IMG/VR virus record: IMGVR_UViG_3300009610_000083
Coordinates: 1-25,490 of that record
Length of the DNA: 25,490 nt
From: a virus
Direction: 5' to 3' (one strand)
The notes under the pieces: model-generated
The model's database searches: none
Seen by the model: only the letters and a program-made list of their open reading frames with translations
What the model was told of the DNA's origin: nothing
Made by a program: the position numbers and the translations under genes
Shown here: piece by piece, positions 4,189 through 25,490 of the stretch
Numbering within the stretch: the stretch's first letter is position 1
Layout: each line of letters begins with the position of its first letter

Positions 4189-5583
4189 ATGCGCGTTGTT
4201 GAGAAGAAAAGCGGAAATATCGAACGAACGATCTTAGTTGCAATGATCGTAAGTCGTTACGTTTTATCCAAAATCTCCGCCCATTGGGAAAAAGGCGGGT
4301 TTTTTGAATCAAAATGGGCGAACCTCATAGCCGGGTGGTGTGTCTCGTACTATAGTAAGTACAAGAAACCGCCCGGACCTATGATCGAATCGCTTTTTCG
4401 AGATTGGGCCGGAGCGAAAGAAAGGGATGCTGATACCGTGGATATGGTAGAACGATTCCTGAATCATCTGAACGGTGAGTACAAGCAACGAAAGCGAGGA
4501 CTCAACGAAGATTACATCATCGACCGTGCTGGTGAGCATTTCAACAAAGCGCTAGTAGGCATGACCGCCAAGGATATGGAGGACGATCTTGAGGCCGGCG
4601 ATGTGGAAAAAGCCGTGCAGCGAATGAAGTCTTTCAACAAGATACAATTGGGCATGGGTCATGGGATTGATTTGCTGTCCGACTTCTCAGCATTGGAGAA
4701 AGCATTCGAGTCCAAGAAGGAGCCGATCCTAGAATATCCTATGGCTGCCGGTGACTTTATTGGCGATGTAATCGAGCGGGATGGATTCGTTATGTTCATC
4801 GGACCTGAGAAGCGAGGCAAAAGTCATTGTCTGCTTGATGTCTCATGGAGGGGGTTCGAGCAACGCAGAAATGTCGCCATGTTCCAAGTAGGCGATATGA
4901 GTCAGTCACAGATCGAACGTCGGTTTGTTGTACGAGCGGCAAAACGTCCATGGAAGGAGGGTTCGTATCGAGTCCCGATCAAAATAACCAAAGTGGAAGA
5001 TGGGATGCCGGAGATTCAATATGAGGACAGGCATTGCGAAATGCCTCTAACTTTCAAAGAAGGACGGAAAGCATACAATCGAGCAAAAAAGAAATATGCT
5101 CCTGGATCAATCAAACTCAGCGTTCATCCAAGTGGAAGCATCAATGTCCCACAAATCCGAAGCATTATTCGAGATTGGGAAGAACATGAACAATGGGTGC
5201 CGGATATCGTTGTGATTGACTACGCCGATATTCTGGCTCCAATAGACCGCAAAGCAGATAAACGGGATCAGATCAATGAATCGTGGATCGCCATGCGGGG
5301 TCTGTCTCAAGAATTGCATTGCTGTGTAGTTACTGCCACACAATCCGATGCTGATAGCTATGATGCTAAACTGATCAGTATGAAAAATTTCAGCGAAGAC
5401 CACCGTAAGTGGGCGCACGTCACGGCAGCTATCGGCATAAATCAAGACGATGAAGAAAAAGAGGCAGGAATATTCAGGCTGAATTTTCCTGTTCGCCGCG
5501 AAGGATTCAATTCGCCAAGACGATACGTTACAATTGCTGGCTGTTTGGCTATCGGCAACCCGTGCATGAGAAGCGTATTATAA
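4189..5583 (+). CDS. DnaB/RecA-fold replicative helicase
   Basis: This 464-residue ATPase most likely unwinds the replication fork. An N-terminal helical region (about residues 1-165) precedes a RecA core with Walker A GPEKRGKS (205-212), Walker B DIVVIDYADIL (339-349), a sensor-like TATQSD (382-387) and a basic FPVRREG segment (433-439) where DnaB-type helicases place arginine fingers. The length matches DnaB (about 470 residues), but the N-terminal domain does not look like the standard one, and the core carries an insertion between about 255 and 305. GGAG sits seven bases before the start. It completes the primase-initiator-helicase set upstream. A recombinase of the RecA/Sak4 type is a less likely alternative because of its length. 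Confidence 0.87.
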   Translation: MRVVEKKSGNIERTILVAMIVSRYVLSKISAHWEKGGFFESKWANLIAGWCVSYYSKYKKPPGPMIESLFRDWAGAKERDADTVDMVERFLNHLNGEYKQRKRGLNEDYIIDRAGEHFNKALVGMTAKDMEDDLEAGDVEKAVQRMKSFNKIQLGMGHGIDLLSDFSALEKAFESKKEPILEYPMAAGDFIGDVIERDGFVMFIGPEKRGKSHCLLDVSWRGFEQRRNVAMFQVGDMSQSQIERRFVVRAAKRPWKEGSYRVPIKITKVEDGMPEIQYEDRHCEMPLTFKEGRKAYNRAKKKYAPGSIKLSVHPSGSINVPQIRSIIRDWEEHEQWVPDIVVIDYADILAPIDRKADKRDQINESWIAMRGLSQELHCCVVTATQSDADSYDAKLISMKNFSEDHRKWAHVTAAIGINQDDEEKEAGIFRLNFPVRREGFNSPRRYVTIAGCLAIGNPCMRSVL

Positions 5584-5716: not shown

Positions 5717-6730
5717 ATGATGAAGGTCAAACTGAGCAAGCTTCGCGAGTTGTTCCAAGCCTGTGGCTACGGCAACGCGGCGAAGTGGGATGCCGACAAG
5801 ATGGCGTCGAAAGTCGGCGACATGGCAGAGCTGATCGACAAGGACACGGCCGCCGGCATCGAAGACGAGGATTTGCAAAAGCTGTACAAGCAGCTGAAGA
5901 AGGCAATGAAGGATGAGGACGAGATCGAGATCATCGAAGGCAAGGACGACGATGACAAGCCGAAGAAGAAAAAGAAAGCAAAAGATGACGACGAAGAAGA
6001 TGATGACGATGATGAGGATGAAGATGATGCCGAAGAAGATGAGGATGGCGATGAAGATGCAGATGATGAGGACGACGAGAAGCCTGCCAAGAAGAAGAAA
6101 GGCAAGAAGGCAGCGGATGAAGATGATGACGATGACGACGATGACGACGCCGATGACGATGACGATGCCGACGATGAAGATGACGAAGAGGAAGAAAAGC
6201 CGGCAAAAAAGAAGGCAAAGAAGAAACCGGCAAAGGATGAAGACGACGATGACGATGACGAAGACGATGATGGAAATGATGGCGAAGACGATGAAGACGA
6301 TGATGATGACGAAGACGAGAAGCCTACCAAGAAGAAGAAAGGCAAAAAGAAGAAGGCAGACGATGACGACGATGACGACGACGATGAACCGAAGAAGAAA
6401 AAGAAGAAGAAGCTGGGCCGGGCTGGTGGCAAGTCTGGCGGCGTGATCGGCTACTTCCGAAACTTGCTGAAGAAGGCTGGCGAGGCCGGCACTTTGATGA
6501 AAGAGAAGAAAATCAAGGCCGCGCTAGAGAATAAGTTTCCAGATCGCGACATTGATGGTATGATGATTACATTCCGTAGCCAGGTGCCGACACGGTTCTT
6601 CAAAGGCGGGGTGTGGGTCCAAGGTAGTCGGGAAGAGGGTTGGATGATCGTCGGCGAAGGCAAGATTCCGACAGGAATGAAAAAGTGGCGTGGTACGAAG
6701 AAGAAGCAGAAGAGCGAAGACGACGAATAA
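5717..6730 (+). CDS. charge-block low-complexity protein with folded ends
   Basis: This 337-residue protein has three parts. Residues 1-75 are helical and folded-looking (LRELFQACGYGNAAKWDADK). Residues about 76-240 alternate runs of Asp/Glu with Lys clusters such as KPAKKKKGKK. Residues about 243-315 form a second domain (VIGYFRNLLKKAGEAGTL, then RSQVPTRFFKGGVWVQG and GWMIVGEGK) that resembles a winged helix. AGGAG lies six bases before the first of two adjacent ATGs. Part of the low-complexity DNA is nearly identical to the SSB gene at 24287. It is monocistronic-looking, with a strong terminator behind it, which suggests heavy expression. Function unknown; a nucleic-acid mimic or binding or condensing protein is speculation. 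Confidence 0.85.
   Translation: MMKVKLSKLRELFQACGYGNAAKWDADKMASKVGDMAELIDKDTAAGIEDEDLQKLYKQLKKAMKDEDEIEIIEGKDDDDKPKKKKKAKDDDEEDDDDDEDEDDAEEDEDGDEDADDEDDEKPAKKKKGKKAADEDDDDDDDDDADDDDDADDEDDEEEEKPAKKKAKKKPAKDEDDDDDDEDDDGNDGEDDEDDDDDEDEKPTKKKKGKKKKADDDDDDDDDEPKKKKKKKLGRAGGKSGGVIGYFRNLLKKAGEAGTLMKEKKIKAALENKFPDRDIDGMMITFRSQVPTRFFKGGVWVQGSREEGWMIVGEGKIPTGMKKWRGTKKKQKSEDDE
5943..6069 (+). repeat. long direct repeat, copy A (other copy in SSB gene)
   Basis: This 127-base coding segment matches 25049-25160 base for base, apart from one 15-base (five-codon) stretch, gacgatgatgaggat, that is present only here. The same reading frame is used in both genes. Confidence 0.92.
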
Positions 6731-6810: not shown

Positions 6811-7239
6811 ATGAGCAATGTAAAAGTCAAAAAGCAGAAGCCGGAATCAGAAGAAGAGATCGCTGAAGAATGTGATCACAGCGGATATGCAGGCGTGTGG
6901 TATAATGCTGCCTCGTCAGCTGTGAATGCCGGACGCACAGGGCCGGAAGCAGCGGATATCGCCGATTACATACTAATGGCGTACAATGAGCGTTTTGTCG
7001 GAGGTGGTGGCGGCGATGAGAAAGACAAAGAGACAGATGAAACGGAGCAGGTAGAAGACGACGAAGAAAGCGAAGAGGACGAAGAGGAAGACGAAGCAGA
7101 CGACGAAGATGAGGATGAGGATGAGGAAGAAGAGGAAGAAGAGGAAGAAGTAGAACCTACCAAGGAAGCAAAGAAACCACCGGAAGAAAAGAAAGTTGTG
7201 GTCAAGCGACCGCCACCGCGAGCCAACCCGCGGAAGTAG
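6811..7239 (+). CDS. acidic-tailed small protein
   Basis: This 142-residue protein starts at ATG 6811 after TTTAGGAG; an ATG at 6806 is in another frame and stops at once. Residues about 12-62 look folded and helical (ECDHSGYAGVWYNAASSAV, then AADIADYILMAYNERFVGG). A glycine hinge follows, then about 50 residues that are almost purely Asp/Glu, and a proline- and lysine-rich tail (KRPPPRANPRK). It lies between two intrinsic terminators, so it needs its own promoter, probably in the 80 bases upstream. It shares the charged style of its upstream neighbour but no folded-domain similarity is seen. Function unknown; DNA mimicry or protein-surface binding is possible. Confidence 0.83.
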   Translation: MSNVKVKKQKPESEEEIAEECDHSGYAGVWYNAASSAVNAGRTGPEAADIADYILMAYNERFVGGGGGDEKDKETDETEQVEDDEESEEDEEEDEADDEDEDEDEEEEEEEEEVEPTKEAKKPPEEKKVVVKRPPPRANPRK

Positions 7240-8457: not shown

Positions 8458-9531
8458 ATGCCAATAAAACTAAACCGTGAAGATTTCCTTCGGCGAATGG
8501 AGATCGTGCAGCCTGGATTGACGCCTACAGAAGTGGTCGATCAATCCAATTGCCTTGTCTTCAAAAAGGGCAAGGTGTATACCTACAATGATGAGGTCGC
8601 TTGCATCACCAAATCCAAACTACCAACTAGTGTGACTGCGGCTGTTTCTGCTGGTCCGATATTTGCCATGTTGAGTAAGTACAAAGAAGAGTACATCCAG
8701 ATTCGATTAACCAAAAGCAGGATGTACATTCAAGGCAAAGGCCGAGAGTCTTGGATTGCTCTGGATCAAGAGATTACCCTAGGTATAGACAATGTGGATT
8801 TGCCGGACAAGGATAATTGGCAAAAGATCAATCCGGAATTCACCGAGGCTGTTGCGCTTGTTCAAGAATGTGCCAGCAAGAAAGAGGATGAATCGTTTGC
8901 ACTCACTTGCATCAACATTCACCCCAAATGGATTGAAGCCGGCGACAACGATCAGATAACAAGATACCGGCTAAAAACCGGATTGAAAAAATCAGTCTGC
9001 ATCAAACGAAATGCGCTCAAGCACATCATTCCATTCGCACCAACAGAAATGGCTGTCACCAAAACCTGGCTGCATTTCCGCAACGCCGATGTTAGCATGT
9101 CTTGCCGACTGTGGTACGAGCAATATCCAAACTGGTCGCCATACTTTGACATTGAAGGCAAAAAGACAGCACTGCCAAAAGGATTGGTCGAAGCGTGTGA
9201 TAAAGCCAAATACTTCTCCCAGCAGAATGAACATGATTGGGTAAAAATCACGATCCGACCAAATGGCAAGTTGTGGTTGGAAGCTGATGGTGTGTCTGGC
9301 GGACATCGGGAAAAGAAGAAGCTGAATTACTCTGGCAAGAAACTAATATTCTTCATCGGCCCTACGCTGCTAAGTGAAATTGTAAAGAAGCATAATGAGT
9401 GTATCCTGTCGAAAACTGCCATGATGATCGACGGGGGAAAATGGAAATTCGTGGCAAGTTTGGAGTTGTCTGATGGAAAACAACGAGAAGAAGGAAGTAA
9501 CGCTGGAGGAAGCACAGACGAAGGCGATTGA
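8458..9531 (+). CDS. dnaN: DnaN-like sliding clamp
   Basis: This 357-residue protein is close to bacterial DnaN in length (about 366), enough for three clamp domains. Seen in sequence: an N-terminal beta-alpha-beta unit (LNREDFLRRMEIVQPGLTPT, with NCLVFKKGKVYTYNDEVACI), a middle region with QITRYRLKTGLKKSVCIKRN followed by ALKHIIPFAP, and a third with HDWVKITIRPNGKLWLEADG. These match the style of phage beta-clamp homologues. The ring would hold the polymerase on DNA, loaded by the ATPase at 21840-22769. The C-terminal 20 residues are Gly/Asp-rich and not typical of DnaN; the next gene overlaps this tail by 59 bases. GAGG precedes the ATG. Confidence 0.85.
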   Translation: MPIKLNREDFLRRMEIVQPGLTPTEVVDQSNCLVFKKGKVYTYNDEVACITKSKLPTSVTAAVSAGPIFAMLSKYKEEYIQIRLTKSRMYIQGKGRESWIALDQEITLGIDNVDLPDKDNWQKINPEFTEAVALVQECASKKEDESFALTCINIHPKWIEAGDNDQITRYRLKTGLKKSVCIKRNALKHIIPFAPTEMAVTKTWLHFRNADVSMSCRLWYEQYPNWSPYFDIEGKKTALPKGLVEACDKAKYFSQQNEHDWVKITIRPNGKLWLEADGVSGGHREKKKLNYSGKKLIFFIGPTLLSEIVKKHNECILSKTAMMIDGGKWKFVASLELSDGKQREEGSNAGGSTDEGD

Positions 9532-24253: not shown

Positions 24254-24286
24254 TTCGCCCAAACACCATCAATAGGATTTACGAAA

Positions 24287-25490
24287 TGAGCAAGAAAAGC
24301 CGAGCAGAGAAGAAGGAAAAGTTTGCATCCGCGAGCGACCGGCTCGCATTTCGAAAGGGGGTTGGTGAACGAACGGCGATTGCCGTGCCGGAAGGTGTCT
24401 CGTTCTTCGGCCCCAAGAAAGAAGGAACGTGGAAGATCGAAGTCATTCCATACAAAGTAGGCAAACGCAATCCGAACAAGAAAGTAGAGAAAGGCAGCTA
24501 TTACTACGAATTGACTTACTTCATCCATCCGCGGATTGGAGCGGACAACAATTCGTATTGCTGCCTGCAGCGCACGTTTGGCAAGAAATGTCCGGTCTGT
24601 GAACATCGGATCAAGCTAGAGAAATCAGCAGAGTCGGAGGAAGAGAAAAAGCTAGTCAAGTCGCTCTATCCCAAAGAGCGGCAATTGTTCAACATCTTCG
24701 ATCACGGTGAGCCGGAAAAGGGAGTGCAGATTTTTGAAATCTCATTCCACAACTTCGGCAAACATCTGGACAAAAAGATCAGGACGGCAGACGATGAGGA
24801 TCGAGAACGATTGAATCAATTCTTCCATCCAACGAAGGGCCGAACGCTACGAATCACTGGCTCAGAAGAATCGATGGGCAAACAGAAGTACATCGAATTC
24901 TCCGACATTGAATTCAAGAAGCGGTCTGAGCCGCTCGACGAAGCATTACTAGAAGAGGCTGTTGATCTTGAATCGCTGCCGATAGAGTTGGAATATGACG
25001 AGTTGAAGAAGATATTTCTGCAGAGCGGTGATGATGAAGATGATGACGAGGACGACGATGACAAGCCGAAGAAGAAAAAGAAAGCAAAAGATGACGACGA
25101 AGAAGATGATGAAGATGATGCCGAAGAAGATGAGGATGGCGATGAAGATGCAGATGATGAAGATGAATGGAGCAAAGGTGACTCGGTAGACTTTGTGTAT
25201 CGTGGCAAGCGCATGAACGGCAAAATCAAACGATTGAATCGAAAGCGCGGACTTGCTGAGATCAAAGTTCCAGGCCAGGAACGTCTGTCAGTCATCGACA
25301 TCGACGAATTGATGAAACCAAAAAAGAAAGGCAAGAAGCAGGAAGACGAAGAAGAGGATGAAGAGGAAGATGATTGGGATGATGCGGATGACGATGATGA
25401 TGAAGACGATGATGAAGACGACGAACCAAAGCCGAAGAAGAAGAGCAAAAAGAAAAAGAAGAAAGCAGAAGACGATGACGATGACGATGA
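24287..25490 (+). CDS. gp32-like single-stranded DNA-binding protein (3' end outside window)
   Basis: The open frame runs 401 codons from ATG 24287 off the window end. Residues 48-110 hold TWKIEVIPYKVG, a tyrosine-rich strand (SYYYELTYFIHP) and a zinc-type site H81, C92, C102, C105, close to the H64-C77-C87-C90 site of T4 gp32; SSB function is inferred from this. A second OB-like part follows (IFEISFHNFGKHL, TLRITGSEESMGKQKYIEFS). After residue 248 come acidic and lysine blocks interrupted by a small SH3/Tudor-like domain (EWSKGDSVDFVYRGKRM, LNRKRGLAEIKVPGQ; about 294-345). Acidic tails on SSBs recruit partners. One charged stretch is nearly identical in DNA to 5943-6069. Confidence 0.87.
25049..25160 (+). 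repeat. long direct repeat, copy B (other copy in 5717-6730 gene)
   Basis: This 112-base segment of the SSB tail is the partner of 5943-6069. The two agree base for base on both sides of a 15-base stretch missing here. The shared DNA includes the distinctive run gatgacaagccgaagaagaa and the acidic-Gly-acidic codons that follow. Confidence 0.92.

Follow-up and report, generated by a model that had tools for sequence, protein, structure and literature searches.

A charged linker segment shared base for base by two replication genes of one phage points to a single recent exchange in frame

Why do two genes that lie 19 kb apart in one phage genome share a stretch of linker DNA? The window, which is the whole stretch of DNA that we analyzed, is a complete virus record of 25,490 bp. 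An earlier note on its sequence had attributed the match to recent duplication or gene conversion, not to convergent selection on charge, and had seen in it a mechanism by which a charged linker module spreads through a genome. The shared segment and the one difference between its copies are listed here.

5943..6069, + strand: shared-segment copy 1 (127 bp), where the charged linker of ORF 5717-6730 begins
25049..25160, + strand: shared-segment copy 2 (112 bp), in the SSB linker that leads from the gp32 core to a Tudor-like domain
6002..6016, + strand: insert found in copy 1 only, 15 bp, with six equivalent placements and GATGA microhomology; unique in 77.6 kb

Alignment confirmed what had been described of the match: its coordinates, its base-for-base agreement, its one 15-base insertion, and its common frame. 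Once a single 15-base in-frame gap is placed, 112 of the 112 aligned bases are identical. They form two exact runs, one of 64 bp (5943-6006 = 25049-25112) and one of 53 bp (6017-6069 = 25108-25160), which overlap because the position of the gap is ambiguous. Copy 1 is in frame with ORF 5717-6730 and copy 2 with the ORF that begins at 24286, and the frame is the same in both. Identity breaks off sharply at 5943/25049 and at 6069/25160; both ends fall within runs of D/E codons, and the flanks beyond them align as low complexity only. The window is 100% identical to part of a longer record, IMGVR_UViG_3300027533_000667 (77,625 bp; record position = window position + 2250), and in the window and this record alike no other exact repeat comes near the pair in length, the runner-up being 22 bp. 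A search of the whole genome for more copies, which the earlier note had proposed, was run on this 77.6-kb parent record and returned copies 1 and 2 and no third copy. In IMG/VR, exact probes from both halves of the segment matched this phage alone; among GTDB contigs, a first-half probe had zero matches; and further copies were found neither among INPHARED phages nor among plasmids.

The two genes differ in how readily they can be assigned. The one that carries copy 2 has these features.

24286..25490, + strand: gp32-like SSB, running past the window end (413 aa to the stop in the parent record)
25165..25320, + strand: small Tudor/KOW-like domain that immediately follows copy 2 in the SSB

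The protein matches the Pfam gp32 family (PF08804) with 36.5 bits against a cut-off of 26.8 (E 6.8e-9), and we assign it as a predicted gp32-type SSB. No solved structure related to its core was found by sequence. Within the core, H81, C93, C102, and C105 are invariant in four aligned relatives; we liken this His/Cys set to the zinc ligand pattern of T4 gp32, zinc binding being predicted only. Copy 2 sits exactly between the gp32 core and the Tudor/KOW-like domain, which has a 47% identical counterpart in L052 and whose equivalent in L010 has Tudor/chromo Pfam hits. The C-terminal part is an acidic, D/E-rich tail with lysine blocks, and a UvsX-like recombinase is encoded just downstream. The gp32 core, the conserved His/Cys residues, and the acidic C-terminal part are all features shared with T4 gp32 and its acidic C-domain (PMC5892887); in contrast to T4 gp32, the tail is much longer, acid and lysine blocks alternate in it, and a Tudor/KOW-like domain is inserted.

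A profile search recovered 182 relatives of this SSB in IMG/VR, and the best 80 of the 182, the phage itself excepted, are 35-46% identical to it. Charged, often tandemly repeated tails occur in nearly all of the relatives, with a charged linker in the same position as copy 2. In pairs of SSBs whose cores are 79-91% identical, the tails differ by roughly 10-60 indels per kb, with a higher value in one truncated pair, compared with 0-10 in the cores. The tails thus appear to change mainly by indels, and such linkers would normally do so by tandem slippage. The SSBs of L221 and L222 have cores identical over 510 bp and D/E/K-repeat tails that are several indels apart, a difference that we read as rapid slippage; the L221 sequence runs to the edge of its contig.

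The gene that carries copy 1, which we call ORF1, lies close to other replication genes.

4189..5583, + strand: DnaB-like replicative helicase, directly upstream of ORF1
5717..6730, + strand: ORF1, a helicase-adjacent protein with an N-domain, an acid/lysine-block linker, and a C-domain
5717..5941, + strand: conserved helical N-domain of ORF1 (family comparison; model pLDDT 82)
6410..6727, + strand: ORF1 C-domain, winged-helix-like by prediction (model pLDDT 62; relative in L178/L179)
8458..9531, + strand: sliding clamp (DNA polymerase processivity factor)

The ORF1 linker begins with copy 1. Neither Pfam nor PHROG yielded a family for ORF1 at a convincing score; the protein, described earlier as unknown, is a member of a helicase-adjacent family that we found here. 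Single-sequence scans recovered only the same phage from IMG/VR and nothing from GTDB. Its relatives came instead from comparison with SSB-linked loci and from a two-row profile; an N-domain profile of six rows varied too much to be used for scanning. Proteins with a similar N-domain, a charged linker, and a C-terminal domain adjoin a DnaB-like helicase in L237/L256, L197/L198, L232, L242, and L257, a protein of the same architecture lies between helicase and sliding clamp in G004, and further N-domain relatives occur in G002, L223, and L255 (that of L255 right after a helicase-like gene), the helicases in these relatives having been called by eye from translation similarity, without a family scan. 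The relatives carry charged linkers at the same place as ORF1. The description of the two linker-bearing genes as unrelated needs correcting as regards function: both belong to a replication/recombination module, and the linkers of their relatives occupy the same places.

The N-domain of ORF1 gave a good model with no confident match in the PDB. The C-domain model is moderate; winged-helix proteins are among its weak structure matches, none of them at E <= 0.001, and we propose with moderate confidence that its secondary-structure elements follow a winged-helix-like order. Several types of C-domain are found among the N-domain homologues, and in G002 a wHTH-like C-domain also terminates a second protein. 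The family appears to keep its N-domain and gene position while exchanging the C-domain across the linker. Protein architecture and gene position lead us to interpret the linkers as acid/lysine tethers that are flexible and disordered; the SSB linker would tether the ssDNA-binding core to the Tudor-like domain, and the ORF1 linker would tether the N-domain to an exchangeable C-domain. Directly downstream of ORF1, at 6811-7239, is a second acidic protein with a long E/D run followed by a lysine/proline tail, which has no long exact DNA match to the other linkers.

One pair of relatives records a breakpoint within such a linker. DNA identity between L256 and L257 is ~86% across the helicase and the N-domain of the ORF1-family gene (L256 1129-1809 vs L257 2920-3477), and this homology is lost ~94 codons into the gene, inside the charged linker. 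Past the breakpoint the C-domains are unrelated and different genes follow, and homology resumes before the clamp. Together with the copied segment of the window, this single breakpoint suggests that charged linkers may act as recombination junctions. A broader proposal is that, in the UvsX-encoding phages of this group, charged linkers of replication proteins are general junctions at which linkers are copied and C-domains or neighboring genes are swapped while the folded parts stay intact; we consider this rather doubtful.

Could the same selection for charge pattern, working with a narrow codon set, have produced two similar linkers independently? Charged linkers of the DDDD-KPKKKKK style recur across many phage SSBs and other proteins, and linkers within one genome are often alike in their DNA k-mers, a likeness that we do not count as evidence, since base and codon use across the whole genome confounds it. 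The codons themselves speak strongly against independent origin. Given that the amino acids agree, the probability that all synonymous choices agree as well is ~10^-11 when codon use is taken from the remainder of these linkers. When synonymous codons were shuffled within each linker with the protein kept, the longest common run had a mean of ~21 and a maximum of 38-44, compared with the observed 64 (z = 5.9). No comparable excess was seen in eight equivalent gene pairs from other phages or in two SSB/clamp-loader pairs from jumbo phages with the same linker chemistry (z -1.3 to 2.8), and the longest runs in these control pairs were within or at the edge of the shuffle null. Across genomes, 42 other phage records with such linkers were compared with the segment, and their best long matches reach only 73-81% identity, as convergence would produce. 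We regard convergence as extremely improbable; on the strength of the codon test, the shuffles, and the 42-record comparison, the two copies share a recent common origin, as the earlier note had held. An assembly artefact, by which a metagenome assembler placed one linker sequence into both genes, is suggested by the difficulty of assembling low-complexity DNA and by the end of the window record at 25490 inside another acidic run. However, a 15-bp difference separates the copies, neither exact run (64 and 53 bp) is as long as the usual 150-base Illumina read, and both genes read through in frame to their own conserved domains. Both copies are also present in the window record and in the 77.6-kb record, although these may share one sample and so are perhaps not independent. 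An artefact of this kind is very unlikely.

A shared origin could also mean that charged linkers are a mobile or hub module in this phage group, repeatedly copied and serving as a site of domain exchange. The event in the window is itself of this kind, and the L256/L257 homology that stops in a linker between differing C-domains, the variety of C-domains behind one N-domain, and the reuse of the G002 C-domain all fit such recurrence. The comparisons that would bring out further events speak against it: apart from the window pair, no gene pair tested has a comparable excess, the window phage has no third copy, and a charged match of >31 bp between distant genes was absent from 16 further contigs, covered whole or in large part, and from 79 SSB-bearing loci (0.93 Mb, many of the compared loci being fragments). 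What is common in these contigs and loci is near-identical charged repeats inside one gene (e.g., 116, 98, and 125 bp). The movement of the segment between genes of related phages, which the earlier note had proposed to look for, had no parallel in the eight homologous pairs, the 16 contigs, or the 79 loci. Recurrent spreading is accordingly improbable, and the proposed spreading mechanism finds no support: on present evidence, this is a one-off event and not a module spread through the genome, and for the most part not a general mechanism.

We therefore consider it highly probable that one recent ectopic recombination occurred, in frame, between charged linkers belonging to two replication genes of one phage, a case built on a single genome, with no closely related phage found. 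Short identical stretches in runs of GAY/GAR/AAR codons would seed the exchange, and gene conversion or replication template switching would copy ~110-130 bp from one linker to the other in frame. Both genes probably had charged linkers beforehand, and the copied segment would most likely have overwritten or lengthened an existing one, because relatives of both genes have charged linkers there. One copy would then probably have lost 15 bp via slippage; the gap favors such a deletion in copy 2, that of the SSB, because of the 5-bp microhomology and because the extra 15 bp are unique, without fixing the donor. Selection would hold charge and length, not the exact sequence, and such copies would therefore be tolerated. 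Synonymous codon use in the segment is weakly SSB-like (log ratio -1.1 to -2.2) and leaves the direction undecided, and the nearest SSB relatives, as a reference for the state before the exchange, are only ~35-46% identical. Both copies may instead have been acquired independently from an unseen third source.

We infer the recombination pathway of this exchange from the genes and from a known system. Besides the UvsX-like recombinase, the record encodes an SbcC-like exonuclease subunit and a RusA-like resolvase. T4 is reported to rearrange by recombination at microhomologies of 6-10 bp, giving segmental amplifications and deletions (PMC9391042); the proposed event would likewise be ectopic, within one phage genome and at short identical stretches, and the window phage likewise encodes UvsX-like, SbcC-like, and resolvase functions. 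In contrast to T4, a short internal segment was here copied in frame between different genes, with no tandem amplification or deletion. Low-complexity regions of prokaryote and phage proteins have already been tied to recombination (PMC6821194), and the window linker is similarly low-complexity and prone to slippage; unlike those regions, it preserves one particular recent exchange between two genes, resolved to the base, for which we found no counterpart in the literature searched. The pair captures, with statistical support, DNA exchange between disordered linkers that belong to two different phage genes. Because sequence of this kind drifts fast, such exchange is usually a matter of conjecture. 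The helicase-adjacent family, in turn, offers a case in which a role of low-complexity sequence as a junction for domain swaps can be tested.

Several other observations were made among the sequences compared. In L049/L092 and L057/L058 (~265-kb phages), the SSB and a DnaX-like clamp loader both have DDEDEKPKKKKK-type tail ends, and DNA-level sharing between them beyond chance was not clear in the shuffle test. L186 contains a 180-bp exact repeat at 4590 and 19217, 14.6 kb apart, whose translation resembles, by eye, part of a homing-endonuclease gene. Downstream of the ORF1-family gene in L197, L232, L257, and G002 are QueD-like, QueE-like, and, in some of them, FolE-like genes, identified by eye from translations, which suggests modified guanine in the DNA of these relatives.
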